From positions 2,206,001 through 2,270,000 of the forward strand of contig JALDRJ010000002.1 of NCBI GenBank assembly GCA_031315865.1: a stretch of 64,000 nucleotides of DNA, read 5' to 3'. Both the position numbers and the translations under genes were made by a program. The number at the start of each line of letters is the position of its first letter. Position 1 is the stretch's first letter. The stretch is from Nitrospirales bacterium. GTDB taxonomy: Bacteria > Nitrospirota > Nitrospiria > Nitrospirales > UBA8639. The notes under the pieces were generated by a model. The model was not told where the DNA came from and did no database searches. It saw nothing but the letters and a program-made list of their open reading frames with translations. This document shows, piece by piece, positions 1,900 through 60,073 of the stretch.

Positions 1900-2391
1900 C
1901 TATCGGAGTATGATTAATTGACCTTTCGGGTCTCCTGATTCAGGATTGCTGTAGTTCAAGACATTATTGGCCGTGACATAGGTCAGGTCACTTGTCGGGA
2001 TTCCGATATACTTGGTTTCACCTGGTTTCAGGTGGACTTTGGCTTCCATCGACCATGGTCCAGCATGAGAAGAATCCGCCGACAGATGGAACGTGTAGTC
2101 TTTTTGGAGTTTATTCGTCACTTTGATCAGGACCGGGCGACCGGCTCGTCCACCTGTCCCGGACCTCGTGAGATTCAACACGGATGTCGGGGGATACCAT
2201 CCATCACTGCCGGCAACGTTGGCGGCCGTCAAAGACAAATCAACATCTAATTCTGCAAAGGGTTGGCCGACGACTGAGCCTGTTTCCAGATCACCGATTT
2301 CCACGCCTCCTGATTGGAGAGCCAGGGCTGAAGGTACGCCTCCCAGGACAAGACAGAGTCCTAATCCCAAGCCAACGAAATAAGTCCGCAT
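1900..2391 (-). CDS. Exported beta-rich protein of unknown function
   Basis: The ATG at 2389-2391 has an excellent ribosome site (AAAGGAGG, 8 bp away), so the longer frame upstream is discarded. The product is 163 residues with a clear Sec signal (VGLGLGLCLVLGGVPSALA). The mature part is rich in beta-strand-type segments (RPVLIKVTNKLQKDYTFHLS, HLKPGETKYIGIPTSDL), resembling a cupredoxin-like or immunoglobulin-like fold. It has no Cys and no obvious type-1 copper ligand set, so I do not call it a copper protein. A copy of the 30-bp shared promoter block lies at 2675-2704, with a -10 TATACT at 2651-2656, implying a leader of about 250 nt. A terminator follows at 1821-1865. Function is unknown. 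Confidence 0.75.
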   Translation of the reverse strand: MRTYFVGLGLGLCLVLGGVPSALALQSGGVEIGDLETGSVVGQPFAELDVDLSLTAANVAGSDGWYPPTSVLNLTRSGTGGRAGRPVLIKVTNKLQKDYTFHLSADSSHAGPWSMEAKVHLKPGETKYIGIPTSDLTYVTANNVLNYSNPESGDPKGQLIILR

Positions 2392-2650
2392 TACGATCCT
2401 CCTTTGTTGGGAACAGAAAATAATTTGTAAAACGGTGTCGGTTGTACCCATGAAGGATCGGGATGAGGGAGGTAGGCGAACCATCCTTTCACCCCGATCG
2501 TTCCCCATGGAATTGGGAAAGAGTGTAGCAAAGAAGTTTTGGAAGGCCCTTCGCGACTCTTCACCCAAAATACGATATTCAATCTCTACGAATTGATCGG
2601 CTCCTTCGTTCAGTGGCCGATGATACCAGAATCTTTGAAAGAGATGAGGA

Positions 2651-2704
2651 AGTATAGGCTGCGTGGAAGTGATGGTCTACAGATGCTTGCTCACCAATGC
2701 TACA
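2651..2704 (-). promoter_or_regulatory. Shared 30-bp promoter block, copy D, with -10
   Basis: The 30-mer at 2675-2704 reads on the minus strand TGTAGCATTGGT, then GAGCAA, then GCATCTGTAGAC. Its end forms a -35-like TAGACC, and TATACT lies exactly 17 bp on (2651-2656). It is one of six well-aligned copies in the window and has the best -10. The downstream gene is the exported protein at 1900-2391. Confidence 0.6.
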
Positions 2705-5751: not shown

Positions 5752-7980
5752 TCACGACAAGAACAGATACCGAATAGAAAATCCTCCAAAGACATTGCGT
5801 CCAACAAATGGTAAAAAAGACGGACTCGTGCCTGGATTGAGACTCGATGTGAAATAATTCGCATCGAATATATTGTCCAGGCGCGAGAAGATTTCGAGTG
5901 ACCATTGACTGCCGATCATCGTATTGTAGCCTGCCTTCAGATTCGTCACGGTATAAGAAGGATTCTTTTGATCGTTCCCGGCTGCACCGGGTGCGGTGGA
6001 TTCTTGATTGGAGTCGTTAATAAAGTAGGCCGTTTGGTACAACCATTCGAAGCCTCCGTAGAATCCGGAAGAATGTTCGTAGGTTGTGTCGAAGACGATG
6101 CGATGTTCCGGAATGCCGGGAAGGCGACGGCCCGAGACATCCACCCCATTGACGATGTAGCGCCGGAATCGATAATCGGCGTAGGAATACGCCGTCTGGA
6201 GCGTGAGCCCAGGAATGGGGCGATAGGTAATGCCCAGTTCAAAACCATCATGATCAGATTTTCCCGCATTACGAAAACATTGCACGAAAAAACAGGGGCC
6301 CGGAGCGTTATAGGGAATCAACTCGTCACGAAAGCGTTGACGGTAAATGGCGAAATCATAGTACAGTTGGTTGCCGACTGTTCCTTTGATCCCAAATTCA
6401 TAGTTGGTGGAGCGTTGGGGTTTCAGTCCTGGGTTGAGTCCGGCGCCCGTCGGATCGTCGGGGTTGCGAAACTCTGTGCTCGTCGGGCTTTCGAATGCGG
6501 AGCTGATGGTCACGTAAAAATTTGCCCAATCCGCGGGCGTAAATCGAATGCTCCCCATGGGAGTCGTTTCAGCGAAGTTTCGACGTCCTGAACTGTCTCC
6601 CCCTACATTCGGAATATGATCCTTGACCTTAAAGCGTACCTGACTGTAACGCACGCCCGCCATCAATTCGATCATCTCAAAGGGATGAAATTCATCTTGC
6701 ACGTAAAATCCGTCCTGGCTCGTCCTGGCTTGATTGTAGACGCGCAGCGTGCCTTGCCGTCCCAGCACGTTATCGAAGTTCTTATTCACGCTGTTTTGAT
6801 CCTGATAGTCATAGCCGATGATCATACGGTTCGGGAGGCCAAAGATCGGCGTCGTGTTGGTATACTTGACGAACGAACCCCACTCGACACGGCGTAGAGT
6901 CAGAAAGCTCCCTGTAAAACAACAGAGCGGGTGATTCAAGTCCCGTGTGCCCAAGAACCCGGTAAGGCTGATTTCCTGATTTGGTGTCAATTGATTTCGG
7001 TACGTCAATGATGGTCGAAAGCGTTCATCTTTTCTCTTGGGATCGAAGGCTGAAAATGGTGTGGTTCGCGGGAACGTCGCGGGAGGCACGGCATTGAGCG
7101 TTTGCTGGGCTTGGCGAGGATTGGTTTCGGCTTCTGTCTTGGTGAGGCTTCCGGGGATATCGATATCCGGCCGACTATACGTGACGATGAGGGAAACATC
7201 AGATTGATCGTTGATGCGATATTTCAGCTTACCGAAAAAACGCTGGTTCCGGACCGTACTGTGATCGCGATATCCGTCAGAATCCAGGAAAGAGTAGCTC
7301 CCCATGTAACTCAAGCGGTCGTCGAGCAGAGCACCTGCGGCTTTGACCCGACTCTTAAAAAAATCATACGCGCCAAACGTGAAGCGCGTTTCGATGTATT
7401 GATTATCGTTCGATCCTTCCTCGATGACATAGTTAATGACGCCTGCCGAAGCATTGCCGTACAGCGCGGAGTTGGGGCCTCGCAACACCTCCACGCGCGA
7501 AATGGCATCCAACTCGATAGGCTCCAGGCGAGTCTGTCCGTCCGGTTCCGTGAGGGGAATGCCATCGATCAGAATACGGACTCCACGGGTGCCGAACGTC
7601 GCGCGTTGTCCGGTTCCCCTGATGGAAATCCGGACATCATCGGGACCAAAGCGCCGTTCGGCGTACACTCCAGGCACGATCCGAAGCGTTTCATCAACTC
7701 CCGTGGCCGGATTAGCTTGTAGGATCTGTTTTTGATTGATGACGCTCACGGCGCCCGGGACCTGTGTGACGGTTTTGGGCGTGCGTGTAGCCGTCACCAC
7801 CACGGGGTCAAGTGTTTCGACTTGAGGTTGATCCGTCTCGTGAAGTTCCTCTTCTTGGAATTCAGAGGGGAGAGAGGCGGAGTCGGCTGCCAAGCTTATG
7901 GTTGTAAGACCGATGAAAACAATGGATGCGAACAGTGAAATGATCATGCAAAAGCGCGAGTTCGTCAGTCGTTTGCGCAT
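5752..7980 (-). CDS. TonB-dependent outer-membrane receptor
   Basis: This is a receptor of about 742 residues with a signal peptide, a TonB box-like stretch (DPVVVTATRTP), a plug domain (VLIDGIPLTEPDG, VEVLRGPNSALYGNASAGVINY) and a C-terminal 22-strand barrel ending in an aromatic-rich strand (FGGFSIRYLFLS). The plug resembles the FecA/PqqU-like branch more than classical siderophore receptors; the ligand is not determined. AAGGAGG precedes both a TTG (7984-7986) and the ATG (7978-7980). I use the ATG. It is the last gene of a minus-strand operon: propeller protein, TlpA-like thioredoxin, small His/Cys protein, then this receptor. It has no STN domain, so it does not signal through FecR. It is related in layout to the receptor at 27256-29481, which also lies behind a copy of the shared promoter block. 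Confidence 0.93.
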   Translation of the reverse strand: MRKRLTNSRFCMIISLFASIVFIGLTTISLAADSASLPSEFQEEELHETDQPQVETLDPVVVTATRTPKTVTQVPGAVSVINQKQILQANPATGVDETLRIVPGVYAERRFGPDDVRISIRGTGQRATFGTRGVRILIDGIPLTEPDGQTRLEPIELDAISRVEVLRGPNSALYGNASAGVINYVIEEGSNDNQYIETRFTFGAYDFFKSRVKAAGALLDDRLSYMGSYSFLDSDGYRDHSTVRNQRFFGKLKYRINDQSDVSLIVTYSRPDIDIPGSLTKTEAETNPRQAQQTLNAVPPATFPRTTPFSAFDPKRKDERFRPSLTYRNQLTPNQEISLTGFLGTRDLNHPLCCFTGSFLTLRRVEWGSFVKYTNTTPIFGLPNRMIIGYDYQDQNSVNKNFDNVLGRQGTLRVYNQARTSQDGFYVQDEFHPFEMIELMAGVRYSQVRFKVKDHIPNVGGDSSGRRNFAETTPMGSIRFTPADWANFYVTISSAFESPTSTEFRNPDDPTGAGLNPGLKPQRSTNYEFGIKGTVGNQLYYDFAIYRQRFRDELIPYNAPGPCFFVQCFRNAGKSDHDGFELGITYRPIPGLTLQTAYSYADYRFRRYIVNGVDVSGRRLPGIPEHRIVFDTTYEHSSGFYGGFEWLYQTAYFINDSNQESTAPGAAGNDQKNPSYTVTNLKAGYNTMIGSQWSLEIFSRLDNIFDANYFTSSLNPGTSPSFLPFVGRNVFGGFSIRYLFLS

Positions 7981-8058
7981 GCGCAAATATCCTCCTTGTA
8001 CAACGAGACCGTGTGAAGAAGTTGAGTCGATGAATGATGTGTTGCGAGCGGTCAGGTA

Positions 8059-8370
8059 CTAAGCTGGAGGAGCTCGACCTTGGCGGAAGACGAGGGTATC
8101 GATGTCCGAAAAAGAGGCAGATAAAGGCGGGGCCAAGAAACGGGTCATGTGGATACTACGCGCAGAGACAAACACAATGAGGGCTGCCAGAGAACCAAAA
8201 CCAGCTTGACAGGCGAAGAAACAGAGAGAGAGGTGAGACGATTGCTGGTGACTGTGAGCGTGACCGGGTTCAGCGTGAGCCGTGGCGCAAAATGCGGTGA
8301 CGCTCATGAGCAGCAAGAGCCAGATCACGAACCCCCAAACTATGGTGGCGACGAACCGGTTCATTTTCAT
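8059..8370 (-). CDS. Small His/Cys membrane protein (DUF2946-like), copy 1
   Basis: This 103-residue product has two hydrophobic segments (near residues 8-32 and 59-72). Between them is a His cluster (His37, 39, 41, 46) followed by the motif LCFFACQAGF, with Cys50 and Cys54. The same arrangement (His cluster, C-x3-C with WAC/FAC, Gly, then a C-terminal R-x-PP tail) appears in two other small proteins at 54889 and 55997, so this is a local family. The start ATG overlaps the thioredoxin stop by four bases (ATGA), so translation is coupled. DUF2946-type proteins are often linked to copper loci. Metal binding is inferred from the His/Cys pattern. Confidence 0.75.
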   Translation of the reverse strand: MKMNRFVATIVWGFVIWLLLLMSVTAFCATAHAEPGHAHSHQQSSHLSLCFFACQAGFGSLAALIVFVSARSIHMTRFLAPPLSASFSDIDTLVFRQGRAPPA

Positions 8371-8915
8371 TGAGCAGGCTCACGAAGCAGACGTTGAATG
8401 AAGGCGATCATCGAGGGACTGTCCCAGTCACGGGGACCCATGGCTCGGCCGATCATGCGCCCATCTTTTCCGATCAAGACCGACAGTGGAAGTGCCCGAG
8501 CCATATACGCGTTCGAGACGGCTTGCGTTTCATCCAAGAGCACAGGAATGTCGACGTTGACCATGCTGAGGAACGCGCGAATGGCTTTTGCTTGGAGGTC
8601 GGACGTGATCGTCAGTAACTGGAAGTCTTCGTCGTGGAGTCGTTCTTGAAGCCGGCCGAGCGCCGGCATTTCGTCCTTACACGGACCACACCAGGTTGCC
8701 CAGAAATTTAATAGCACGAGGCGGCCCTTCAACGATGCGGAACGAATGACAGTTCCTTGCAGGGTCTTGAGTTCAAAAGACGGCATTGGCGTCCCGGCCT
8801 GTTCACGAGAGATATGGAAATTCTCAAAGTCGGAAGAGGCTCGTGATTTCTCAACGCTCAATAGCGTCATCACCAATACACAGCACAAGATGATCCAGGC
8901 AGAGGGTAGTCGCAT
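8367..8915 (-). CDS. TlpA/ResA-like periplasmic thioredoxin
   Basis: The product has an N-terminal signal/anchor (AWIILCCVLVMTLLSV), then a redoxin domain with the active site NFWATWCGPCKDEMPAL and a cis-Pro region (ALPLSVLIGKDG). Such proteins reduce disulfides in the periplasm, for example in cytochrome c maturation or copper-site assembly. Two starts are possible, GTG at 8927 or ATG at 8915. Neither has a clear ribosome site and I use the ATG. It lies 24 bp after the propeller protein gene and overlaps the small His/Cys gene by 4 bp. Its most likely job is keeping the Cys residues of those neighbours (C-x-C-C and C-x3-C) reduced. Confidence 0.92.
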   Translation of the reverse strand: MRLPSAWIILCCVLVMTLLSVEKSRASSDFENFHISREQAGTPMPSFELKTLQGTVIRSASLKGRLVLLNFWATWCGPCKDEMPALGRLQERLHDEDFQLLTITSDLQAKAIRAFLSMVNVDIPVLLDETQAVSNAYMARALPLSVLIGKDGRMIGRAMGPRDWDSPSMIAFIQRLLREPAQ

Positions 8916-8939
8916 GAAGAGTGTCACGGGAAAAAAGGA

Positions 8940-10199
8940 TCAAGGAAGTGTCACGTTTTGAACGATCGTCACGTTATTGGGGAAGGCATGCTCGACCCAC
9001 GAGATGATGCCTTGCCCCTGTTGATTGACGGCAACGGCCGGGTGTTGGGCCTTGGCGTTGTTGAGCCGTTGAGGCGGGCTGAACGTTTGGCCGCGGTCGA
9101 GTGAAGACGAGAAATAGATCTCATGGCGTACGGGGGAAAGTTCTTCCCAGGCCACCAGCACCCGTCCAGAGCGATCGACGGCCATCTGTGGCGTATCAGG
9201 GAAAGTGCTGGTTGAAACATTGAGCTTTTTCCGGGGTGAGAAGGTGCGTCCTTGGTCATCGGACATGGCGAGATAGATGCCCGGGACATCGTCCGGGCCT
9301 TCCGTGTACCACGTCACGTATACCCGGCCCTTGCCATCCACGGCTAGGGAGGCGGGGCGGTGCGGACATCCAGGGAAATTCCATCGGTCATTTCCAACGA
9401 TGACTGGCGAAGAATAGGTCTTCCCGCCATCCGTGGATCGCGCGACGACGGTCTCGCGAAACGTGTCATCCAGTATTTGCCGCCAGGCGACATACACCGT
9501 GCCATCTGGGGCCGAGGCCAATGCGGTGCGACAACAGACGCAGGTGTTGCCTTCCAGCTGGAGATTTTTCGCAACACTCCCTCCTCGATCGAGAGAACGG
9601 GTGATGTAGGTCTTGGGCTGCCGTTTCCCCGTCCGTTCATCGATCCAAGCTAGATGCACCACCCCCTTCCGGTCCACGCACATGTTATCAAACGTATGAC
9701 TTGAGGGGGTCGTATCGTCATTGACGATAATGGGCATGGAGAAGGTCTGTCCCCGATCTTTCGACGTGCTCAGCCGGAGTGTGCTGGCGAATGGATTGTT
9801 CGATGGCGGCGATTGCGGTGACGTCCAGGAGAGATACACGTCGCCTGTGGGCCCTACCGCTAAACTCGGAGATTGATGAATCGCGGCCACGGGCGGGCCA
9901 TGTTGATTGACATGAACAGCCGAAGGCACAGTCGTGGCGCCGGCTGTTACCGCGACATAGAAGAGTTCGTGCCGTTCCTTACCCGCTTCATACCAGGCGA
10001 GATGGCGGTTGCCCTGCTCATCGATCTGAATCGCGGCGCCGGACACTTTCTTGGCTCCATGATTGATGGACAGTTGCGTCCCCAGTGTCGGTGTCTGCGG
10101 TGATTCCGCAGCGGCTTGCAAACAGAAGATGAGAGTCAGCCAGACAGGCATGAGGAACAACAACAGGCATGGCTTTCGGTGGAGCGGGAATAGCATCAT
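8940..10199 (-). CDS. Exported BNR/sialidase-fold beta-propeller with C-x-C-C motif
   Basis: The 419-residue protein has a signal peptide and several Asp-box/BNR-type repeats (STDGGKTYSSP, SDDQGRTFSPR, SLDRGQTFSPP), so a six-bladed propeller is expected. The catalytic Arg triad and Tyr/Glu of true sialidases are not evident, so I do not call it an enzyme. Its striking feature is NTCVCCRTALA (Cys220, 222, 223) and a fourth Cys in NFPGCP (Cys278). All four are conserved in the second propeller at 11213-12496. Such a cluster could bind copper or another thiophilic metal. The ATG at 10199 follows GAGGG. It is the first gene of the operon running to the receptor at 5752, with a shared promoter block 88 bp upstream. 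Confidence 0.85.
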   Translation of the reverse strand: MMLFPLHRKPCLLLFLMPVWLTLIFCLQAAAESPQTPTLGTQLSINHGAKKVSGAAIQIDEQGNRHLAWYEAGKERHELFYVAVTAGATTVPSAVHVNQHGPPVAAIHQSPSLAVGPTGDVYLSWTSPQSPPSNNPFASTLRLSTSKDRGQTFSMPIIVNDDTTPSSHTFDNMCVDRKGVVHLAWIDERTGKRQPKTYITRSLDRGGSVAKNLQLEGNTCVCCRTALASAPDGTVYVAWRQILDDTFRETVVARSTDGGKTYSSPVIVGNDRWNFPGCPHRPASLAVDGKGRVYVTWYTEGPDDVPGIYLAMSDDQGRTFSPRKKLNVSTSTFPDTPQMAVDRSGRVLVAWEELSPVRHEIYFSSSLDRGQTFSPPQRLNNAKAQHPAVAVNQQGQGIISWVEHAFPNNVTIVQNVTLP

Positions 10200-10262
10200 G
10201 AAGCCCTCAAAGGTAAGGTGTGGTATTGAGCCTTGAGAAATGAATGGTCTGAATGAAGATGA

Positions 10263-10316
10263 ACGTAAAAGAGAGTTGTGGCTCTAGTCAACCGATGCCT
10301 GCCAACAAGTGCTACG
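10263..10316 (-). promoter_or_regulatory. Shared 30-bp promoter block, copy A
   Basis: The 30-mer at 10287-10316 reads on the minus strand CGTAGCACTTGT, TGGCAG, GCATCGGTTGAC. Its end provides a good -35 (TTGACT). A weak -10 (TACGTT with an 18-bp gap, or TTACGT with 17) lies near 10262-10268. It precedes the propeller-thioredoxin-receptor operon. Confidence 0.6.
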
Positions 10317-10380
10317 TTTTGCCCCAATCTTCGTCATAGGGAGTAGGTGAATGCACGCGACAGCTTGAATGGGCTGGTGA

Positions 10381-10971
10381 TTATGTGAGCTGTGTAAAGG
10401 CGGTTTCTGCTTGTGTCGCAAAAAGCTCGATTCGTTCGGTTTCCCCTTCGATGTACGCCTGAAAATAGTTGTACGGAATGAGGATGATGACGGCCACGAA
10501 TATGCCGGCCGCCGTACAGATGAGGGCTTCGGCGACGCCACCGGTCACGGCTTGGGTCTGTCCCAGTCCCCCTGTAGCCATGATACCGAAAGAATCAATC
10601 ATGCCAATGATGGTCCCCAGCAGTCCGAGCAACGGTCCCAAGGTAATGATCGTATCCAGCACGGGGAGGCCGCGCTTCATCCTGCCGATTTCGCCCAGAC
10701 CCCGGCTCATCATGGCCTTGGCCGGGTCATCCTGTCGATGCATGATGCCCGTTCCCAGCACGGCAAGAACCGGATTCTGATGTTGTTCGGCCAGTGCCAG
10801 CGCGTCAGTCATCTTTCCCCGCCGGATCAGGTCCAACATGTGTTCGGGCTCTTTCCCGCCGCGGTTTGCCAGGAAAAACCATCCCCGTTCCAGGCTAATC
10901 ATGACCCCAATCGCAAAGGCCAGCATGATCGGGATCATCATCCACCCGCCCTTCATCAGAACCTGTAGCAT
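10381..10971 (-). CDS. exbB: ExbB/TolQ-type proton channel subunit, orphan
   Basis: The 196-residue form starts at the ATG of MLQVLMKGGWMM; a TTG five codons upstream is possible. It has the three-helix ExbB/TolQ/MotA layout: helix 1 in MMIPIMLAFAIGVMISLERG, then the cytoplasmic loop, then helices 2-3 in DTIITLGPLLGLLGTIIGMIDSFG and VAEALICTAAGIFVAVIILIPYNYF. It would energise TonB or a similar periplasmic partner using the proton gradient. It is closely similar to the ExbB at 56806-57465 over the channel region. Unlike that one it has no ExbD or TonB next to it, so it must share ExbD with another locus. The shared promoter block lies 100 bp upstream. Confidence 0.88.
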   Translation of the reverse strand: MLQVLMKGGWMMIPIMLAFAIGVMISLERGWFFLANRGGKEPEHMLDLIRRGKMTDALALAEQHQNPVLAVLGTGIMHRQDDPAKAMMSRGLGEIGRMKRGLPVLDTIITLGPLLGLLGTIIGMIDSFGIMATGGLGQTQAVTGGVAEALICTAAGIFVAVIILIPYNYFQAYIEGETERIELFATQAETAFTQLT

Positions 10972-11045
10972 TTCTTCGTGTAACAAGGTATCAACCTACA
11001 AACATGGGAAGCTGTAATGAACGCATCATCCGGCAGTCACCGTTA

Positions 11046-11100
11046 GTCATAAAGAATCGGCATGCGAAGTGTCTAGTGATCATTGCCCGCGAATGCTACA
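11046..11100 (-). promoter_or_regulatory. Shared 30-bp promoter block, copy E
   Basis: The 30-mer at 11071-11100 reads on the minus strand TGTAGCATTCGC, GGGCAA, TGATCACTAGAC. The -35-like TAGACA is followed 18 bp later by TATGAC (11046-11051). It precedes the orphan exbB. Confidence 0.55.
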
Positions 11101-11212
11101 TTTTGACGAGTGCTAGTGGGTCTGAGCGCGCATGCCTGTGCATGCCGCCTGGCTGTAGCGACCTTCCAGCTCAGGCGTTTCCTGAGCCAGATGGTGGCGG
11201 CGTCAGCCGTGA

Positions 11213-12496
11213 TTAGCGCGCAAGAGTTTCTGTGGGAATCCATGCCGTGTGAATGCCGTACTCTGGAGCTGCTCCCGTCCATGCCAACAGGAATCCTGAT
11301 GGCTCCGCGCTGAATTGCGGGAATCCGGAATCCCGGCCTCCACTCACTTTCGTCAGATAGTGAATGGGGCCTATTGTGCCGTCTGTAGACAGGACGCGTA
11401 GCGCCAGGCTGGGAGTGTTCGTGGCGTCATCGGGCGCGGTGATCCAGGTGATGACCGCTGACTGGTGCGTGTGCCAGACGACTCCAATACGGCCGAACGG
11501 GTCATGTTCATCCACGATGATAGGTGAGGTGAAACTCCGTCCTCCATCGTTTGAGACGGCCGCCTTCACTCGTGGATGGTCCCCTTCTTCGGTATACCAG
11601 GCTCCGATGACGTTCATGCCTTGCGCCGCCAGCATCGGTCCATTGACCGGGCATCCCGGGATTTCCCATCCATCGTCTCCCAACGGTTGAGGCGCTGACC
11701 ATCGGCCTGCCTGTAACCGCGCCGTGAAATTGTCGCGGACTTCTTTGTGTGTTCGACTGCGCCATGCGGCAATGGGGCCGGTTGTCGTGTTCGCGACGGA
11801 TGTCCCGCAGCAGGTACAGGTATTGTCATCGATGATCTGCTCGGGTCCAAAGTTCCCATGGCGATCCATCCGGCTGTAGCGCAAGGAAAAATTCCCGGAT
11901 GTCGCAGGGGAATGATGACCGTTCTTTTTGGAAGAATAGTCACGTCCGTCGAGCCAGATCACTCCCGCTTCTTCATCCACGGGAAAAATGGTGGCAAACC
12001 CATGCTCCGCCGCGATCCCGTCACGATGGGGGCGTTTGGGATCAGACCAGGTGACGCCGGCATCGGTCGAGATAGCGATGGCGATGTCATATTCATAAGT
12101 GCCGCCCCCCGGGTAGTTCACGAGCCAGTGCGCAACCCAGAATTTAGGGTTAATGACTCTGACTGATGGAAAGTCGGCCCAATTGATAAACCAGTTATCC
12201 CCGAGTGCAATTTCCCCTTGTCTTATCCACCGTCCATCGTTTCGCACGGCAAATTTCAGAATGTGACCGTTTGACCAGGGTTCGACCCAGCTCATCAAGG
12301 TTCCACCGTCGGGCATGGGCGTGAGCCGGGGAAGTCGGGCCCCTGCCTGAGCCGGGTTGTCGATGGGTTGTACCGGGAGAGTCGGACGTACGGTGGGTTG
12401 ACAGGCCGTGGCGAGCAAGAGCCAGGCAAGACTCAGCATGACCGTCAGACCATGGAGCCTGCTTGTATGTGATCGTGTCGGACAAAGATCGAACAT
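11213..12496 (-). CDS. BNR-type beta-propeller lipoprotein with C-x-C-C motif
   Basis: The product starts at ATG 12494-12496 (MFDLCPTRSH), giving about 427 residues. A lipobox ATAC (Cys32) marks it as a lipoprotein. The longer upstream frame runs through an intergenic hairpin repeat and is not credible. Propeller-type repeats are present (SNDGGRSFTSP, STDAGVTWSDP). The signature NTCTCCGTSVA (Cys227, 229, 230) and EIPGCP (Cys282) matches the first propeller (NTCVCC, NFPGCP), as does the following WYTEEGD/WYTEGPD. The two are therefore paralogs, one soluble or anchored by its signal and one lipidated. No enzyme active site is evident. A metal-binding or metallochaperone role is inferred. A shared promoter block lies at 12747-12776, leaving a 5' leader of about 220 nt that contains a hairpin repeat. 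Confidence 0.82.
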   Translation of the reverse strand: MFDLCPTRSHTSRLHGLTVMLSLAWLLLATACQPTVRPTLPVQPIDNPAQAGARLPRLTPMPDGGTLMSWVEPWSNGHILKFAVRNDGRWIRQGEIALGDNWFINWADFPSVRVINPKFWVAHWLVNYPGGGTYEYDIAIAISTDAGVTWSDPKRPHRDGIAAEHGFATIFPVDEEAGVIWLDGRDYSSKKNGHHSPATSGNFSLRYSRMDRHGNFGPEQIIDDNTCTCCGTSVANTTTGPIAAWRSRTHKEVRDNFTARLQAGRWSAPQPLGDDGWEIPGCPVNGPMLAAQGMNVIGAWYTEEGDHPRVKAAVSNDGGRSFTSPIIVDEHDPFGRIGVVWHTHQSAVITWITAPDDATNTPSLALRVLSTDGTIGPIHYLTKVSGGRDSGFPQFSAEPSGFLLAWTGAAPEYGIHTAWIPTETLAR

Positions 12497-12583
12497 GACT
12501 GCGCTTATGGAAGAGATGGACAAAGGCTTGATGGTTGTTCGCGCTCGTGACGTGGAAGGAATAGAGATTGAAGAGGAAAAAGT

Positions 12584-12629
12584 CCGAGTGAAGGCCAAGG
12601 AGGTTGCAAGTCCAAACACCTTCACTCGG
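12584..12629. repeat. Hairpin repeat, copy 1
   Basis: The perfect 11-bp stem CCGAGTGAAGG/CCTTCACTCGG (12584-12594 and 12619-12629) encloses a loop with the conserved core CCAAGGAGGTTGCAAGTCC. Two other copies at 53027 and 55364 keep the loop but have a different, still pairing, stem. It lies in the leader of the propeller lipoprotein gene. Confidence 0.75.
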
Positions 12630-12722
12630 GATTGGTCCAAGGGTTGGAGGCCGGTCCGTCCTTGGAGCACTGAAACAATGTCAAAGATATCAGGTACAGG
12701 GCGACAATGATGACACCTGCAC

Positions 12723-12776
12723 ACCATAGTTGATCGGAGCATTCCGGTCTACTGATCGCTGCTGACCGATGCTACA
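12723..12776 (-). promoter_or_regulatory. Shared 30-bp promoter block, copy C
   Basis: The 30-mer at 12747-12776 reads on the minus strand TGTAGCATCGGT, CAGCAG, CGATCAGTAGAC. TAGACC is followed after exactly 17 bp by TATGGT (12723-12728). Transcription would start near 12716 towards the propeller lipoprotein gene. Confidence 0.6.
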
Positions 12777-12909
12777 GACTGGCAGGATTTCTTAAATCGA
12801 CCGGTTGGGAAGTGCGGCAGATTCTTTTTTGAAAATCTCTCAACAAAAGATGTGTTGTGTAGTATTCGATAGCAACAGTCTCTAGACTCGAACGAACTTT
12901 CTTCACCAT
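12772..12909 (-). CDS. Possible 45-residue basic peptide
   Basis: An ATG at 12907-12909 is preceded by AAGGAGGGCAGT, a near-perfect ribosome site. The short frame (MVKKVRSSLETVAIEYY..., basic, one Cys) ends at 12772, overlapping the last bases of promoter block C. No signal peptide or known family is visible. The ribosome site is the only positive evidence. It may be a small real gene or a chance frame in a regulatory gap. Confidence 0.35.
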   Translation of the reverse strand: MVKKVRSSLETVAIEYYTTHLLLRDFQKRICRTSQPVDLRNPASL

Positions 12910-13044
12910 ACTGCCCTCCTTTTTGTCCTCAATATCGCCTGCGTTGACGAGACGTTCAGAAACTTCGACTGCCTGTGTGCGCTGGTTGCGTTTCGTCACC
13001 GTGCGGTGCATTGAGATTTCTGAATCACCATCTTGGAGAAACGT

Positions 13045-21130: not shown

Positions 21131-21464
21131 CGGGATGACATTCCCATACCAGGAAACACGGTTGCGTGCGAACCTGTACCATCTCACAGGCCCTCGCGCC
21201 GGTCAATCAATGAACGGTCATGTCTATGGATGCATACGTGTGCAACAATCAGAAGCCCAACTTCAAGCGTACGGATCCTCCTGCATTTTGTTGCTCTTAT
21301 CGTTCTGTGCGATGGCTTTCGACTACTTCAGTTTGCCGTTGACGAATCTATTCACGAACAGAGAAGCTGGCATCTTTAGTTTTGTCAGATAGGTTTTGGT
21401 AGAAACGATAGATAGTAGAGAGCCATGGATTTGAGGAATATGTCGGCATATGAAATGCGATGTC
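21131..21464. other. Intergenic gap upstream of the RND operon
   Basis: A degenerate relative of the shared promoter block may lie at 21222-21247 (minus strand TGTTGCA, 7 bp, GCATCCATAGAC), four bases shorter than the six good copies and without a convincing -10. I see nothing else definite here. Confidence 0.3.
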
Positions 21465-22691: not shown

Positions 22692-22717
22692 TGGGTTCGT
22701 GCACTGTGCCCTTCGCC

Positions 22718-25219: not shown

Positions 25220-25397
25220 GAACCCTGTCTCCATGAAGATGAATAAATATAATCTCGCGGGGCATGCGATGGCGCAGCCGCATGAATCAACTGCAGTTAG
25301 ACGGATGAGGATCAAAAAACCACATGAAGAATATTCTTGGCGAGGGGGAAATGCCCGCTAACGAAAAGGTGATGAAGATCGTCCCGTGATGGCGTAT

Positions 25398-26402: not shown

Positions 26403-26520
26403 GAGTCCTTCGCGTGAAACGCTTTGTCCTAAGAGAGCCCTCGCTATCTTAGACGGATAACGGATCGAAAACCACAATTTCTTGAACAGAGAGAAGAAGC
26501 GGGGAAGGGGTGAGTGTCCT

Positions 26521-47367: not shown

Positions 47368-47375
47368 GGACCCCA

Positions 47376-52960: not shown

Positions 52961-53026
52961 AATCTCACATCTCGAATGTGCGGAAGTTCTTTGAAGCGGT
53001 CATAGCCATAAATAAACGGGAGAGGG

Positions 53027-53235
53027 CCAGGGTGAAGGCCAAGGAGGTTGCAAGTCCTAATGCCTTCACCCTGGAAAATCCAAGGTCAGGAGGAAGAGCC
53101 CACCTTGGATGTCACAAACAGTACCTAGATGCCTTGTCCCGTCAGGTCATACGATCAATACCCACGCGATGCTCCCGTCACGTGGGCGCTCCCACCTTGG
53201 ATGTCATGAACAACAGAGCCGGTGCGTTGACTAGG
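53027..53235. repeat. Intergenic repeat element, copy 2
   Basis: It begins with a perfect 13-bp hairpin CCAGGGTGAAGGC/GCCTTCACCCTGG (53027-53039 and 53062-53074) around the conserved loop core AAGGAGGTTGCAAGTCC. It continues with further repeated pieces, including two copies of CCCACCTTGGATGTCA (53099 and 53191) and GATGCCTTGTCC. The same order recurs at 55364-55550, and the hairpin alone at 12584. Confidence 0.75.
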
Positions 53236-54012: not shown

Positions 54013-54765
54013 TCAGGGATAGGCCGTTGGAACGTAAAAATTCAATGGATTCATCGCGTGATAACTGACATTCGAATGTACGCCTGCCTCGGGATTGACA
54101 TAGCCCCCGACATATCCCGTCTCATGTCGAATGACGAATTCCTGGGGACTCAGATGATTGTTATGTTGACGCACAAGTCTCTGGTACAGAAGTTTTCCGG
54201 CTTCAATGCGGAGGATTTTGTCGTCGGTCTCATATGCGATCTTCGTCGGATAAGGGCGGCACGCATCAACGGCGGCATTGAGAATCCGGTGGATGTGCAG
54301 GAACGTGTTGAGCGCGAGTTGGGCGAGGCGCTGCTGTTCACGTGGTTGCTGCTTAATGAAGTCGGGACGTGACAGTCCCTTGGGGGCAGAGTCTTGAAAA
54401 ATAATTCCATGTCGTGAGTCGAAGGCGATGGCTCCGTTCGCGATGCGACCGTTGGTGAGATCGGCCATGCTCAAGTAATGGACATAGTCCTTGTGTCTTG
54501 CATCTTCTGAGTTGCGGGGAACGTATTGTCCCGGGACTCTTTTCAATACTAAATCCCGATGTCGTGCGACTTGAATATGGATCGAGGCACGCTCCCCTTT
54601 CCCTTTGCACATCATCGGACTGAACGGCTTGGCGGCCAGACGGAGCGGAAGCACATGGTCAGCGTGCACGGCGGCGGGTAGCCCGTTGATGACCAGGAGG
54701 CCCACCGCGATGACGAGGATGGCCTGTCTGCAGGTTGAACGTAGTTTGCCAGAGGTGAACGGCAT
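54013..54765 (-). CDS. Exported protein of unknown function
   Basis: The start ATG (54763-54765) follows GAGGAG. The 250-residue product has a signal peptide (AILVIAVGLLVINGLPAAVHA). The mature part contains PMMCKGKGERASIHIQVARHRDLVLKRVP, LAQLALNTFLHIHRILNAAVDACRPYP and a Gly/Asn/Tyr-rich end. I recognise no family. Two Cys (in MMCKG and DACRPY) may form a disulfide. It lies between the cytochrome P460 gene and the small His/Cys gene, so an envelope redox role is possible. Confidence 0.7.
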   Translation of the reverse strand: MPFTSGKLRSTCRQAILVIAVGLLVINGLPAAVHADHVLPLRLAAKPFSPMMCKGKGERASIHIQVARHRDLVLKRVPGQYVPRNSEDARHKDYVHYLSMADLTNGRIANGAIAFDSRHGIIFQDSAPKGLSRPDFIKQQPREQQRLAQLALNTFLHIHRILNAAVDACRPYPTKIAYETDDKILRIEAGKLLYQRLVRQHNNHLSPQEFVIRHETGYVGGYVNPEAGVHSNVSYHAMNPLNFYVPTAYP

Positions 54766-54888
54766 AATGATGCTCCTCTTTTGTGACGCAAATAACCAGG
54801 AAATCGTGGAGCGAAGGCGAAGAAGTCTTCGCCTCGCATCCATCATGTCTGGACATGACAGAAAGGATGATCGGGACTTTGTTTGGAG

Positions 54889-55218
54889 TTACGAGAAGAG
54901 AGCAGAGGGAGGACTGCGGGAATTGACTGTTCGATCGATAGTATGAGGTATTTGATGGCTCAGGGCGCTGACGAGTGGCGAAACCTGGTCGGCACATTGG
55001 GCAATGTAGAATTGTGGAGATTGAATGGTCGAGCCAGCCTTGCAGGCCCAGTCGCACCAGGATTGTGTATGGGTTTGGTGAGAGTGGTGATCACTCAAGC
55101 CATGGTAGGCGATGGAGCTTGTCAGAACGGTACTGACCAGAAAAAAACATAGAGAAACCGTCAACGCCAGGAAACATGACGCTTTGTGTATTCTTCGATT
55201 CTGTCGGAAAAAGCTCAT
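54889..55218 (-). CDS. Small His/Cys membrane protein, copy 2
   Basis: This 109-residue protein has one N-terminal helix (CFLALTVSLCFFLVSTVLTSS). A His cluster (HHSHQTH, residues 44-50) is followed by SWCDWACKAGS (Cys55, Cys59) and a C-terminal NSRSPPSALF tail. It matches the proteins at 8059 and 55997 in this order of elements. A shared promoter block lies 72 bp upstream. Metal or redox function is inferred only. The start ATG has no good ribosome site. Confidence 0.68.
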   Translation of the reverse strand: MSFFRQNRRIHKASCFLALTVSLCFFLVSTVLTSSIAYHGLSDHHSHQTHTQSWCDWACKAGSTIQSPQFYIAQCADQVSPLVSALSHQIPHTIDRTVNSRSPPSALFS

Positions 55219-55319: not shown

Positions 55320-55363
55320 GATAATGCTTTGGGAGAGGTTGCCAAAGGAACGTAGAAATGATT

Positions 55364-55550
55364 CAGGGTGAAGGCCAAGGAGGTTGCCAGTCCCAATGCC
55401 TCCACCCTGGTATGTCTAAGGCCATATGACTAGTCGACTTCTGATGTCACGAACGGCGGCGTCGATGCCTTGTCCTGACAGGTCACATGATCAAGACCCA
55501 TGCGACGGACCTGACGCGTTGACTAGTCCCACTTTGGATGTCACGATTCG
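55364..55550. repeat. Intergenic repeat element, copy 3
   Basis: The hairpin CAGGGTGAAGGC/GCCTCCACCCTG (one mismatch; 55364-55410) has the conserved loop core (AAGGAGGTTGC, CAGTCC). It is followed by the same downstream pieces as copy 2: GATGTCACGAAC, GATGCCTTGTCC, GACCCATGCGA, GCGTTGACTAG and CCCACTTTGGATGTCAC. No gene is seen from 55320 to 55620 apart from this element. Confidence 0.75.
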
Positions 55551-55996: not shown

Positions 55997-56344
55997 CTAC
56001 AAAGAAAAGATCGTTTGAGGCGGTCCACGAGACCGGATAGAACGGACGGGCTGATGAAAGGAAGTCAGAGTCGCATACGAGACCTGAGCGATAACGAGTA
56101 GATCGGGTTTGATTTCTGAGCCGTCAACAATTTGCCCAGTGGATGTCTGAAAACCCACTTGGCAGGCCCATACGCAGAGCGTCTGATGACTGGCGTCGTG
56201 TTGAGTTTGGTGCGGGCTTTCGTGAGAAGAGCCCGGAGGGGCGAACATGCAAAACGATGCAGCCCCGATGAGAAAGAGATATAGGGATGAAAGAAGCAGA
56301 CCTCCAATCCCTAGGAACCGAATATGTGAAGAACGTTTTATCAC
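55997..56344 (-). CDS. Small His/Cys membrane protein, copy 3
   Basis: 115 residues: an N-terminal helix (FLGIGGLLLSSLYLFLIGAASF) and a His-rich run (HESPHQTQHDASHQTLCVWACQVGF) with Cys57 and Cys61 in C-x3-C. A short hydrophobic part and a tail SRGPPQTIFSL follow. It is the last gene of the TonB-ExbB-ExbD operon, 9 bp after exbD. Its association with a complete TonB system, while copy 1 sits with a receptor, supports a role in TonB-linked import, perhaps of a metal. Confidence 0.72.
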   Translation of the reverse strand: MIKRSSHIRFLGIGGLLLSSLYLFLIGAASFCMFAPPGSSHESPHQTQHDASHQTLCVWACQVGFQTSTGQIVDGSEIKPDLLVIAQVSYATLTSFHQPVRSIRSRGPPQTIFSL

Positions 56345-56353: not shown

Positions 56354-56770
56354 TTACTCGTCTGGAGTGTTTTCGGGCTTCGTGGCGATCGCCATGTTGG
56401 GAATGCCACTCAACCGGACCCTGTCCATGACCTTGACGACCACTCCATGATCCACGTGCTCATCGGCGTTGATGACCACTGACGGGTCCGAATCTTTTGG
56501 GCGTGCCTGTTGGAGCTGGTCGCCTAGCTGGTCAAGCGTAATCGCTTTTTTATTGAAAAACAAGTCCCCCTGATCCGTGATCGTTAACGAGATCTGTTCT
56601 TTGACATTGTCGGTCGTCGAACCGGCTTCTGGCAGGTTGACCGGCATGCCACGTTGCATCGTCATGGAGAGCGTCGCAATCATGAAAAAGACGAGAAGAA
56701 AAAACATCGTATCGATCATAGGAATGATTTCGATTCGAGCTTTCTTTTTGGCCGCCGCTGGAAATTTCAT
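56354..56770 (-). CDS. exbD: ExbD-type TonB-system subunit
   Basis: 138 residues: a short N-terminal cytoplasmic part, one membrane helix (EIIPMIDTMFFLLVFFMIATLSM) with the functional Asp in MIDTMFFLL, and a periplasmic domain (VNLPEAGS, LTITDQGDLFFNKKAITLDQL, VVINADEHVDHGVVVKVMDRVRLSGIPNMAIAT). It works with ExbB to use the proton gradient for TonB movement. It starts 35 bp after the exbB stop. Confidence 0.94.
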   Translation of the reverse strand: MKFPAAAKKKARIEIIPMIDTMFFLLVFFMIATLSMTMQRGMPVNLPEAGSTTDNVKEQISLTITDQGDLFFNKKAITLDQLGDQLQQARPKDSDPSVVINADEHVDHGVVVKVMDRVRLSGIPNMAIATKPENTPDE

Positions 56771-56805
56771 CGTGAGAGCCGATTGCCAGAACTATCGCCG
56801 CCTGT

Positions 56806-57465
56806 TCATGGGGCTTGATGCTGAATTGGTGCTTGGTGTTCGACCGACGCATATGTCGATTGATGATGAGGGTGACGTACCTGCGCGGCGAGAGCGGATT
56901 CGAGCTGCGTCGCATATTGTTCGATACGTTCGGTCATTTGTTCAACTTTCGCATGAAAATAGTTGTAGGGAATTAAGGTCGTGACGGCCACGAATATGCC
57001 CGCCGCCGTACAGATCAAGGCCTCTGCAATCCCTCCGGTCACGGCATGAGGCTGGCCTAATCCGGACTCAGCCATGATCCCGAATGAATCGATCATCCCG
57101 ACGATTGTCCCCAGTAATCCTAAGAGGGGGCCAAGGGTAATGATCGTATCCAGGACCGATAGGCCTCGTTTCAAACGGGCCAGCTCAGCCAGTCCTGCGG
57201 CTTCCATGGCTTTGTCAGGAAGCTCTTCCCGGTTCATGATGCCGGCTGCGAGGACACGCAGAAGCGGTTGAGCGTGCTGGTCCGCAAGGGCAAGCGCATC
57301 CGTAAACTTACCTTTTTCGGACAAGGCCACCATTTGGCTGGCTTCCTGAGTTTTTCCCGTACCTCGAAATTGCAACAACCGTTCAAACACGATAGTCATC
57401 CCGATGACAGAGCACGCAAGGATCGGGAGCATCATCCAGCCACCTGCCATTAGCATTTGCATCAT
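56806..57465 (-). CDS. exbB: ExbB-type TonB-system subunit
   Basis: 220 residues from ATG 57463-57465. The channel helices are GGWMMLPILACSVIGMTIVFERLL, DTIITLGPLLGLLGTIVGMIDSFG and VAEALICTAAGIFVAVTTLIPYNYF (first residue differs). It is very close to the orphan ExbB at 10381. A His-rich tail (HPHHQSTYASVEHQ) is extra. It lies between tonB and exbD, forming the complete proton-driven motor. Confidence 0.93.
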   Translation of the reverse strand: MMQMLMAGGWMMLPILACSVIGMTIVFERLLQFRGTGKTQEASQMVALSEKGKFTDALALADQHAQPLLRVLAAGIMNREELPDKAMEAAGLAELARLKRGLSVLDTIITLGPLLGLLGTIVGMIDSFGIMAESGLGQPHAVTGGIAEALICTAAGIFVAVTTLIPYNYFHAKVEQMTERIEQYATQLESALAAQVRHPHHQSTYASVEHQAPIQHQAP

Positions 57466-57481
57466 AGGTTCTTGGTCTTTC

Positions 57482-58396
57482 TCAACGTTGAAGTCCGAAT
57501 TTGAGTGGCACCTGCAAGTATTTTTCCACCGGGAAGTTTCCGTCCATGGCAGGAGCAAAACGCCACTGCCGGATGGCTTCCATGGCCGCATCGTCCAACA
57601 CTTGATGTCCGCTACTTTTTTGAATCGTGACGTGATCTGGTATTCCATCCGTTCGCACGAGGATTTTGACGAGGACCGTGCCTTCCCATCCTTGCTCTTT
57701 CGCTAAGCGGGGGTAGACCGGACGAACTGAATGGCGAACGCGGATTTTGGCTAATCCGTTCCCACCGGATACCGGTGGAGTAGCCACCAGACGTCTTGAG
57801 CGAGTGGCTTGTGTCGTTGATGGCGCCGTATGGATTGCTTGAACGTGTGAAGATAACGCACGGGTCTGGGTTATTTTCGAGGCTTTCGTAGTCAGCATAG
57901 GTGAAGCTGAGGGAAGCGCTGCCTCAGTTGCGGTCGAACGTTTCACCATCTTGGTCGCGTGTTGAGCGAATAACGCATCCGCGGCCTTGGTATCTTTCAG
58001 CACTCGTGGTTTGTGAGATAGCTGCCGGTGGTCTTCTGCCGGAGGCGTCGGCTTGAATGCGACAGCAGGAGTGGTCATAAGTGGCTGAGCCTGACTCAGC
58101 GCGGGTGGCGAGGGAGTTGAAACGGGCTGTGAGGCGGTAGCACGAGAAGGCTGGCGCATAGGAGGTGGAGCGACCGGTTCTTGCGCGTCTTCGCTAGATG
58201 GAAGGGAGTCAGCCGGAACCTCAGCCGGCACAAGGGTCACCTGGACCAACTGAACGGTTTCCACTGGAGGCTCTGCCTGGTACCACATTTGAAGCCCCGC
58301 CAAGAGCCCTGCATGCAGGGTCAGAGAAGCCACCACGCAGAACAGCACCTTCCGCGATGTGAGGTCCGGTGGCATGAGGACTGTTGTTGTGCTCAT
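57482..58396 (-). CDS. tonB: TonB energy transducer
   Basis: 304 residues: an N-terminal helix with the Ser-His core (VASLTLHAGLLAGLQMW), a Pro-rich spacer (about residues 60-200) and a C-terminal TonB domain. The latter contains RPVYPRLAKEQGWEGTVLVKILV, IQKSSGHQVLDDAAMEAIRQWRFAP and ends VPLKFGLQR. It should span the periplasm and touch receptor TonB boxes. Its start overlaps the TPR gene stop by 4 bp. Together with exbB, exbD, the second TonB-like gene and the TPR gene it forms one operon. Confidence 0.95.
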   Translation of the reverse strand: MSTTTVLMPPDLTSRKVLFCVVASLTLHAGLLAGLQMWYQAEPPVETVQLVQVTLVPAEVPADSLPSSEDAQEPVAPPPMRQPSRATASQPVSTPSPPALSQAQPLMTTPAVAFKPTPPAEDHRQLSHKPRVLKDTKAADALFAQHATKMVKRSTATEAALPSASPMLTTKASKITQTRALSSHVQAIHTAPSTTQATRSRRLVATPPVSGGNGLAKIRVRHSVRPVYPRLAKEQGWEGTVLVKILVRTDGIPDHVTIQKSSGHQVLDDAAMEAIRQWRFAPAMDGNFPVEKYLQVPLKFGLQR

Positions 58397-59451
58397 GATT
58401 TGACTTTTTCGATCAATTTTTCAATGCGTTCATCCGTCCCGCCACGCTTCAAAAATTCTTCATATTGCCGCAAGGCTTTTTCCGTGTCCTTCTGGTGAAA
58501 TTCATAAAAGACCCCAAGATTGTAATAGGCGTCGAGTAAATTCGGGTCCAATGAAATCGCTGTTTGATACGCCGTTTCGGCTTCTTCGAATCGTTTGAGG
58601 GACGCCAGCACGACACCTAAATTGAGATGGGCCTCTGGATTTTGAGGCGTCAGTTCAATGACTTTGGTGAAGTGTTCCGCGGCCTGCTGGCTGTTTCCTT
58701 GTTCCTGGTACAGAAATCCCAGGGCATAATGAGGCGCCAATGCGTTCCCGTCTATCGCGATGGCTTGTTCGTAGGCCTCGATCGCGGCGTTCTTCTGTTG
58801 CTGTCGCTCGGCGATTTCTCCTTGTAGCAGCCATCCGTCGAGGTGGTTCGGCTTGATTTTGTGTAATTGTCTCAGAAAATCTTGAGCTTGTGCCGACTCT
58901 CCGAGTCGATTCTGCCAGTAGGCGAGTTTGTACAGAATCTCCGGTTGACGAGGCTGGAGTTCCAAGGTTCGTGAGAGGGCGTGGATGGCTTTTTGAGGCT
59001 CCTGGGTCTGTTCATAAAGATGAGCTAATGCGAGCTGGGCTTCGTGAAAACGCGGGTATAATTCGAGCGCTTTCTTATAGGCTTGTTCCGCCTCCACCGT
59101 CTTTTGCTGATGGAGGAGAACCGTGCCGAGGTCCAAATGTGCACGTGCGAAGTTTGGATAATAGGAAACCGCTTGCTGCAAAGCTTCGATGGCTTTCTCT
59201 GGCTGCTTGAGCTCGGTGAAGTAGACGAGGCCGAGTAAATGGTGTGCCTCCGCGAAATGCGGGTATGCGCGAATCGCCGCCTGAAGAGATTGTACCGCCT
59301 GTTCGTACTGACCCTGTTGCATGAGTTTGTGCGCCTGATTAAAGCGGTTCAGTGCTTCGTCTGCGAACGTGGTGACGGGCGACAGGAGACAAATCAGGCA
59401 TGCGAGAATCCCAAAGCGTCGAAGCAGGGAAACAGATGGATGCATAATCAT
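58393..59451 (-). CDS. Exported TPR-repeat protein of the TonB operon
   Basis: 352 residues: a signal segment (RRFGILACLICLLSPVTTFA) and about nine tetratricopeptide repeats (for example ALNRFNQAHKLMQQGQYEQAV, KAIEALQQAVSYYPNFARAHLDLG). It is paralogous to the TPR protein at 565-1656, with the same C-terminal block (EEFLKRGGTDERIEKLIEKV). Position between two TonB genes suggests that it scaffolds TonB complexes or receptors in the periplasm. Function not proved. Confidence 0.9.
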   Translation of the reverse strand: MIMHPSVSLLRRFGILACLICLLSPVTTFADEALNRFNQAHKLMQQGQYEQAVQSLQAAIRAYPHFAEAHHLLGLVYFTELKQPEKAIEALQQAVSYYPNFARAHLDLGTVLLHQQKTVEAEQAYKKALELYPRFHEAQLALAHLYEQTQEPQKAIHALSRTLELQPRQPEILYKLAYWQNRLGESAQAQDFLRQLHKIKPNHLDGWLLQGEIAERQQQKNAAIEAYEQAIAIDGNALAPHYALGFLYQEQGNSQQAAEHFTKVIELTPQNPEAHLNLGVVLASLKRFEEAETAYQTAISLDPNLLDAYYNLGVFYEFHQKDTEKALRQYEEFLKRGGTDERIEKLIEKVKS

Positions 59452-59482
59452 GTGAACGGTACCCTTGGCAGAGAGCGGTGAA

Positions 59483-60073
59483 TTAATGAGATTGTTTCAA
59501 GTCAAAATGTATCGGGATGTCGACCACGCTGCTCACGGCGAATTCGCCATTTTTCCCCGGTAGAAATTCCCACTGTTTCACGGTTTGTACGGCGCTATCG
59601 TCTAACGAAGAATGTCCGGAGCTTTTCTGGATTGTCGTCGTTAAGACTTTACCATGATCATCGATGGTCACGCGAAGTACGATCGTGCCTTCCCACCCCT
59701 GTTCCCTGGCAAAGCGTGGATAGGGGGGGCGCGGGGCGTGGATCGGTTTCACTGACGTGCGAACGCCTCTGATTTTTCCGGCCGGATCCATGACTGGTCG
59801 AGATGATCGAAGGTTCGGGCGTTGGATGCGTAGGGTGCGAGGAAGCGCAAGCGAGGGGTGGTCCAGAAATGAATGGAGCGAATCGATCTCCGGTGCGGGA
59901 AAATGGATTTGCCGCGGCTCACGTTTGATGGCGGTTCCTGGAACTTCGAACACATCCAGCATTTCAACGTCCTCATCTGCGGAATGTTGCGCCCGTGTTT
60001 GAGGGGCTTCCTGCCCTAAAAGGAAAAGAACGGCTGTAGCTATAACTGCGAGAATAAAGAGGTGTCGAGGCAT
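59483..60073 (-). CDS. Second TonB-like protein, short form
   Basis: 196 residues with an N-terminal helix (LFILAVIATAVLFLLGQ) and a short linker. A TonB C-terminal domain follows (RPPYPRFAREQGWEGTIVLRVTIDDHGKVLTTTIQKSSGHSSLDDSAVQTVKQWEFLP, read in parts). It is nearly identical in layout to TonB1 over this domain. The Ser-His motif of true TonB helices is absent, so it may not couple to ExbBD in the normal way. A clear promoter lies upstream. It heads the operon. Confidence 0.9.
   Translation of the reverse strand: MPRHLFILAVIATAVLFLLGQEAPQTRAQHSADEDVEMLDVFEVPGTAIKREPRQIHFPAPEIDSLHSFLDHPSLALPRTLRIQRPNLRSSRPVMDPAGKIRGVRTSVKPIHAPRPPYPRFAREQGWEGTIVLRVTIDDHGKVLTTTIQKSSGHSSLDDSAVQTVKQWEFLPGKNGEFAVSSVVDIPIHFDLKQSH

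Follow-up and report, generated by a model that had tools for sequence, protein, structure and literature searches.

The 64,000-nucleotide stretch analysed here (the window), from contig JALDRJ010000002.1 of the Nitrospirales assembly GCA_031315865.1, carries a cluster of envelope genes that is probably a copper-acquisition regulon of nitrite-oxidizing Nitrospirales, and uptake is its likely role, rather than defence. The cluster encodes two CxCC beta-propellers (PropA and PropB), an ExbB-type proton channel, a TlpA-type thioredoxin, a small protein of 103 amino acids (aa) and a TonB-dependent receptor, all on the minus strand of region 5752-12775 (Table 1), where a first-pass annotation had placed them. 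That annotation had also proposed a thiophilic metal such as copper, a link to TonB and a partnership with TlpA, and our results support all three, with copper as the most likely metal; its list of features lacked a leader RNA and several small upstream open reading frames (uORFs) that we describe below. The host is most likely a nitrite oxidizer, since its nearest relatives are Nitrospirales genomes and the window contains genes of the type-II dimethyl sulfoxide (DMSO)-reductase/nitrite-oxidoreductase kind (43921-49376: a large molybdopterin oxidoreductase and an iron-sulfur subunit, with a response regulator between them), which we take to be nxrAB.

The small gene resembles those of known copper sensors. 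Its product starts with a signal-like N-terminus, continues with a His-rich stretch and CFFAC, and ends in RAPPA-stop, and its counterparts in other Nitrospirales carry C-x-W-x-C and, a few residues before the stop, R-[AG]-P-P. Scanning the window and 80 named loci for open reading frames (ORFs) with a Cys pair and an R[AGS]PP-like end yielded 187 uORFs, against 2.8 expected from shuffled ORFs. CX3C is found in 185 of the 187, the commonest end motifs are RAPP (130) and RGPP (48), and all but one share the strand of the PropA operon. From the Cys pair to the RAPP-type motif there are 41 or 42 residues in 171 uORFs and 44 in another 11. Both Cys of CX3C are invariant across 70 aligned members and the sequence between the motifs is free, so that the conserved property would be the spacing, as would be expected of a sensor that has to emerge just beyond the ribosome tunnel. 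The gene 3' of the uORF (155 cases) encodes a receptor in 67 cases, an outer-membrane beta-barrel in 29, TonB in 16 and a PropA-type propeller in nine; the gene 5' is TlpA in 64 cases, with a median overlap of 4 bp. In the genome studied here, the window accounts for three uORFs, and a fourth precedes a Met/His-rich outer-membrane-type protein. A Nitrospira locus (L132, 2134-13346) has five in series, flanked in every case by TlpA, beta-barrel, lipoprotein or receptor genes.

This architecture has close parallels in two described copper sensors. Bordetella CruR has CXXC, 45 residues and RAPP, and copper relieves its translational arrest, leading to Rho-dependent termination before the receptor gene (PMC9426467); the arrest has been reproduced in a pure translation system, RAPP and RGPP arresting in the widest range of contexts (PMC12992588), and the receptor imports copper for respiratory oxidases (PMC12914433). 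Rhodobacter CutF, with CxxxC, works in the opposite sense, copper switching genes on (PMC9973294). Because of the CX3C-41/42-R[AG]PP-stop architecture, we read the small His/Cys protein, which the first-pass annotation listed among the parts of the operon, as a putative regulatory arrest-peptide uORF and not as a carrier or structural part. The family very probably consists of nascent-chain sensors, and the metal sensed is highly likely to be copper. The window uORF has the hallmarks of the CruR/CutF type (a Cys pair, R[AG]PP at a fixed distance and a metal-related gene, the TonB receptor, next to it), but it does not take first place in the operon as in the described CruR operons.

Compared with the Bordetella pertussis CruR-CrtA(BfrG)-CrpH operon (PMC9426467, PMC12914433, PMC13038864), the Nitrospirales arrangement is alike in having a small secreted uORF that carries a Cys pair and, at a fixed distance from it, a C-terminal RAPP; a TonB-dependent receptor comes next, sometimes with TonB/ExbBD alongside. 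It differs in its CX3C motif (CXXC in CruR), in its spacing of 41-42 residues (45 in CruR), in the internal position of the uORF after PropA and TlpA, in the addition of the propeller, TlpA and several uORFs in series, in having no PepSY_TM directly in the operon, and in matching Pfam DUF2946 below threshold only. The first-pass annotation knew of no described system with this set of genes; this stands for the set, whereas the uORF-receptor pair is described in Bordetella. R. capsulatus CutF shares the CxxxC, a Sec signal, a proline-rich end and a position upstream of copper genes, but it raises a multicopper oxidase with copper whereas the window uORF precedes a receptor (PMC9973294). Other RAPP/RGPP arrest peptides such as ApdA and ApdP are likewise small secreted ORFs with R[AG]PP a few residues from the stop; those monitor protein localisation, whereas the Nitrospirales uORF has a metal motif 41-42 residues upstream (PMC10951233, PMC12992588).

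The surroundings of the arrest motif were also inspected. As regards Rho utilization (rut) sites, the gap between the window uORF and the receptor has a mild excess of C (24 C, 14 G), which is not seen in the 65 gaps of the family (C 0.264, G 0.278). In 182 uORFs the first Pro of RAPP is encoded by CCT in 89 cases (49%, background 14%) and the Ala by GCT in 44% (background 12%), a bias for which stalling, mRNA pairing or ancestry are candidate causes; the predicted pairing of these codons with the next gene's ribosome site, in an anti-Shine-Dalgarno check, is barely better than in synonymous shuffles (mean z -0.45).

It is quite improbable that the metal is another transition metal such as zinc, iron or nickel. 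CutF-like proteins near nickel/cobalt genes have been reported (PMC9973294), and the genome studied here contains a divergent, His-rich uORF-like ORF (L261 3687-4031, ~3083.7 kb) that ends in RPPPVLFSFFS and precedes a beta-barrel and a ZnuA-type zinc transporter, possibly as a zinc version. That ORF, however, lacks the second Cys of the motif, and it is copper genes that accompany the canonical CX3C uORFs and the CxCC propellers.

The propellers would be the metal-holding part of the system. PropA and PropB are homologues, with 34% identity over 190 aa (E=1e-18), and have CxCC and CP in common, as the first-pass annotation had seen; that they share little else was an understatement, since 18 divergent propellers (alignment A1) also have W, D-x-R, two R and H as (nearly) invariant residues. 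Four Cys are the only ones invariant over 61 propeller sequences, and H168 is invariant too. The high-confidence model of PropA is a seven-bladed propeller (predicted local distance difference test, pLDDT, 90; blade number taken from the strand list), and that of PropB, a protein whose lipobox LLLATAC makes its earlier description as a lipoprotein plausible, has the same strand order at medium confidence. In repeat register, the strand-b Trp follows C220 and C278 by 19 residues in two adjacent blades, and it follows H168, C222 and (A type) H280 by 17 residues in three adjacent blades. The four Cys occupy inner loops that correspond to each other in two neighbouring blades, next to the invariant His of the preceding blade, and because these Cys/His loops run into the innermost strand it is likely, in the model, that they form a single site at the channel mouth. 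We lean slightly towards direct binding of Cu(I) at such a site.

The CxCC propellers appear to be a distinct seven-bladed, non-sialidase family. Automatic annotation calls them 'sialidase family protein', and as sialidases or lectins they would process glycans for the TonB receptor, a very improbable function that we rejected because of absent catalytic residues and metal-gene neighbourhoods. Their BNR matches and the model do place them in the Asp-box propeller fold class of GH33 sialidases and PLL-type lectins, with sialidase-like fold matches. Yet the sequence match to sialidases is confined to short Asp-box stretches, the 18 divergent members of alignment A1 have no invariant Tyr or Glu usable as the sialidase nucleophile, and the family has instead its four invariant Cys and metal genes nearby. 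The top fold match is 5hx0, a protein of unknown function; a sequence search found no solved structure of a CxCC relative, and no copper link for sialidase-labelled propellers was found in the literature searched, which left most subscription journals uncovered.

The neighbourhoods in question are those of 12 plasmid-borne relatives from Alpha- and Gammaproteobacteria and Bacteroidota (Roseobacteraceae, Methylomagnum, Bacteroidota), in nine of which CxCC and C-P were read directly. All 12 have, at a distance of up to ~8 kb, a multicopper oxidase, CopC/CopD, a copper ATPase, a metal resistance-nodulation-division (RND) pump or a comparable metal gene, the weakest case being Spirosoma (DUF326 and a heavy-metal domain), whereas six control windows taken from these plasmids include a single one with a copper gene; several of the Roseobacter islands are related, and the 12 cases are thus not 12 independent events. 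Such surroundings raise the alternative of copper detoxification or repair, in which the propeller would sequester or oxidise excess periplasmic Cu(I) and a CutF-like uORF would raise the genes at high copper. Multicopper oxidases, P-type ATPases and RND pumps do accompany the Roseobacter and Bacteroidota relatives in copper/heavy-metal resistance islands, and CutF, with the same CX3C, turns on a multicopper oxidase (PMC9973294). We nonetheless consider this alternative unlikely: the partners in Nitrospirales are TonB receptors, TonB and ExbB/ExbD, that is, import; no copper ATPase was seen next to the operon; and the CruR-receptor pair of known function is an import system that copper turns off (PMC9426467, PMC12914433).

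The operon itself is well conserved. PropA-type relatives occur in 29/60 related genomes, a few of them distant, and in 80 retained loci of the named collection; N. moscoviensis and N. defluvii are among the latter, as are Nitrospinota and a single deltaproteobacterial bin. The order propeller-TlpA-uORF-receptor recurs across Nitrospirales, N. moscoviensis among them. The first-pass annotation had named a lack of co-occurrence in other genomes as a refutation of its view, but the genes do co-occur: among 63 loci with room downstream, TlpA is found in 47, the uORF in 54 and the TonB receptor in 56, and 41 loci have the complete trio. These are undercounts, as ORF picking was crude. In the window, the tight spacing noted before holds from PropA to TlpA (12 nt) and between TlpA and the small gene (a 4-bp ATGA overlap), but not from there to the receptor, whose likely ATG at 7980, preceded by AGGAGG, lies 78 nt away; an alternative TTG at 7986 is too near AGGAGG. 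The best NCBIfam match of the receptor is PqqU, far under its cut-off. As for the ExbB said to be without ExbD, none lies beside it, but a second set, ExbB-ExbD-TonB, is present at 56354-60073.

TlpA, with WATWCGPC and Redoxin and AhpC-TSA matches above cut-off, has the WCxxC of TlpA/ResA thioredoxins. Its place directly 3' of PropA would also suit a propeller that is not a carrier but a copper- or thiol-dependent enzyme, or a TlpA-driven redox-active disulfide protein (for example one reducing a metal complex). The CxCC is unusual and possibly redox-active, D-x-R, two more Arg and a Trp are invariant, a copper-dependent propeller-type enzyme, SELENBP1, exists (PMC10362175), and in one genus (L067, L069, L098) a VKOR-thioredoxin fusion gene with its own leader RNA copy directly precedes PropA. 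No other conserved catalytic set was found across the family, however, and plasmid copies occur without an adjacent TlpA, so that we hold this alternative to be improbable.

Expression of the cluster has features of its own. The promoter block that the first-pass annotation reported on three units is real, and a fourth copy exists. It is 29 bp long, GTAGCA-N17-GTAGAC-like, with GCA and ATC fixed inside the spacer; its 12-base core has exactly four perfect matches in the 3.78-Mb genome, all in the cluster, and one-mismatch matches are at background level. The block recurs in four Nitrospira loci (L103, L109, L127 and L141) before uORFs or TlpA. We rejected a sigma-54 reading, the spacing being, by eye, one base short of that pattern.

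The leader of PropB contains a two-hairpin element with the near-invariant loop UUUGGACUUGCAACCUCCUUGG. By sequence it was found in 17/197 genomes (none in the reversed control), and a covariance model gave strong scores in 24 genomes of three genera, plus four weak ones. The window holds all three copies of its genome. Copies that share a contig with a propeller gene are always on the propeller's strand, and the element precedes a CxCC propeller (~nine loci), the VKOR-type gene before PropA, a uORF, a PepSY_TM-like gene and others. In the second hairpin (P2), 98.1% of cells are paired, better than in slid controls, and four pairs show double changes; covariation support is moderate because the sequences are related. 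The first hairpin (P1) exists in two versions unrelated in sequence. Many copies end in a U-run, from which attenuation is our guess at the mode of action, although the conserved loop is unusual for a terminator. Rfam gave no gathering-level match in the window and nothing relevant in 7900-13200 with E values up to 5, and no copper riboswitch was found in the literature searched, again with most subscription journals uncovered. We consider it fairly likely that the element is a true cis-regulator. The loop of all three copies (12578-12666, 53022-53075, 55358-55411) holds ACCUCCUU, the letters of the 16S rRNA 3' end (anti-Shine-Dalgarno). A cytochrome P460-family lipoprotein gene (53288-53836) adjoins one copy, and genes of this kind are also found close to the element in L064 and L214.

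Taken together, the parts suggest the following mechanism. The receptor, powered by ExbB/ExbD/TonB, would bring a copper complex into the periplasm, where PropA and the probable lipoprotein PropB would hold Cu(I) at the propeller mouth through CxCC and the C-P cysteine (with H168) and hand it on towards cuproenzymes, TlpA keeping the propeller thiols reduced. Three elements would set expression: the dedicated promoter block, the leader RNA that precedes PropB and other units, and the 103-aa uORF. When copper is scarce, the nascent uORF would stall at RAPP and the receptor would be made; copper on CX3C just outside the exit tunnel would relieve the arrest and turn the receptor off, as for Bordetella CruR. 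Since PropA and TlpA precede the uORF within the operon, silencing by copper would act more strongly on the receptor than on the propeller. The most elaborate version of this scheme, a three-layer copper regulon that unites a new family of four-Cys, Cu(I)-capturing propellers for TonB-coupled import, serial nascent-chain sensors and a new metal-responsive class of leader RNA, is doubtful as a whole.

Several observations weigh against copper uptake under a CruR-like sensor. The window uORF scores 14.2 bits against Pfam DUF2946 (PF11162), whose gathering cut-off is 23.7, and in its 70 relatives a match at E up to 0.1 appears in 17 (best 5e-4), most having none; the working resemblance to CruR/CutF, as judged from the motifs, stands despite this. 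Sequence alone fixes neither the direction of the sensor's response nor its metal, because relatives of the sensor include the opposite-acting CutF and perhaps binders of other metals (PMC9973294). The plasmid propellers lie in resistance islands, which detoxification fits as well as uptake does. Finally, the ligand of the receptor may vary between Nitrospira, because its identity to the receptors in the same place of most of them is just ~23-28%.

Table 1. Coordinates of the cluster and related features in the window
Feature	Position	Strand	Remarks
Small secreted protein	1900..2568	(-)	Behind fourth promoter block; cupredoxin-like by eye only
Fourth promoter block, before ORF 1900-2568	2675..2703	(-)	Motif and genome scan
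TonB-dependent receptor	5752..7980	(-)	PqqU-like by weak similarity; likely ATG 7980 behind AGGAGG
CruR/CutF-like uORF, 103 aa	8059..8370	(-)	H-rich, CFFAC, then RAPPA-stop
TlpA/ResA-type thioredoxin (WCGPC), GTG start	8367..8927	(-)	Redoxin / AhpC-TSA matches; same position in most relatives
PropA	8940..10199	(-)	Exported seven-bladed BNR/Asp-box propeller (model pLDDT 90); C220-x-C222-C223 ... C278-P, H168
Promoter block before PropA	10287..10315	(-)	GTAGCA-N17-GTTGAC
ExbB-type proton channel	10381..10986	(-)	MotA_ExbB E=7.5e-27; ExbD not adjacent
Promoter block before ExbB	11071..11099	(-)	Motif and genome scan
PropB, CxCC propeller, probable lipoprotein	11213..12496	(-)	Homology to PropA; medium-confidence model
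Leader RNA element of PropB	12578..12666	(-)	P1 ~12636-12666; P2 12578-12631, conserved loop GGACUUGCAACCUCC; then U-run
Promoter block before PropB	12747..12775	(-)	GTAGCA-N17-GTAGAC
Third leader RNA copy (P2)	53022..53075	(-)	Sequence and covariance search
277-aa protein, no family assigned	54013..54846	(-)	Relative directly before PropA in another species (L094)
Third CruR-like uORF	54889..55218	(-)	CDWAC ... RSPP; before 277-aa protein
Second leader RNA copy (P2)	55358..55411	(-)	140 nt before third uORF
Second CruR-like uORF	55997..56344	(-)	CVWAC ... RGPP; directly 3' of ExbD
ExbD, ExbB, TonB, TPR, TonB-C proteins	56354..60073	(-)	Candidate energizer set; adjoins uORF and PropA in L094

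The small secreted protein behind the fourth promoter block (Table 1) has no Pfam match. Beside the cluster lies an RND efflux pump operon (15409-21187: HlyD-type adaptor, outer membrane factor and permease), followed by an ordinary iron uptake locus (21465-27072) with FecI-FecR-like genes, a siderophore receptor and a PepSY-type protein. At 27256-30960 there is a pair of genes for a TonB receptor and an amidohydrolase; L058 and L156 have relatives of the amidohydrolase close to their PropA operon, and this type of receptor comes after a uORF and the promoter block in L125.

Nitrite oxidizers rely on copper-using respiration. With the uORFs, the range of copper-sensing arrest peptides would extend to a phylum in which the Pfam model overlooks them; the CruR homologues listed by Roy et al. 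are from Proteobacteria and a few other phyla, with no mention of Nitrospirota (PMC9426467). The propellers give a hypothesis of function to a widespread protein family labelled 'sialidase' in databases. The leader RNA is compact and new and, if it truly senses copper, would be the first RNA of its kind, since no riboswitch for copper or zinc is known according to Roy et al. (PMC9426467). Outer-membrane copper import has been proposed in the same order for PcoB/CopB, which a 2026 survey finds almost only in comammox Nitrospira, with no outer-membrane copper importer named for the canonical ones, whereas the TonB operon described here is widespread and includes canonical nitrite oxidizers (PMC13374858). 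The operon is a strong candidate for the copper supply system of N. moscoviensis, of relatives of N. defluvii and of other Nitrospirales.

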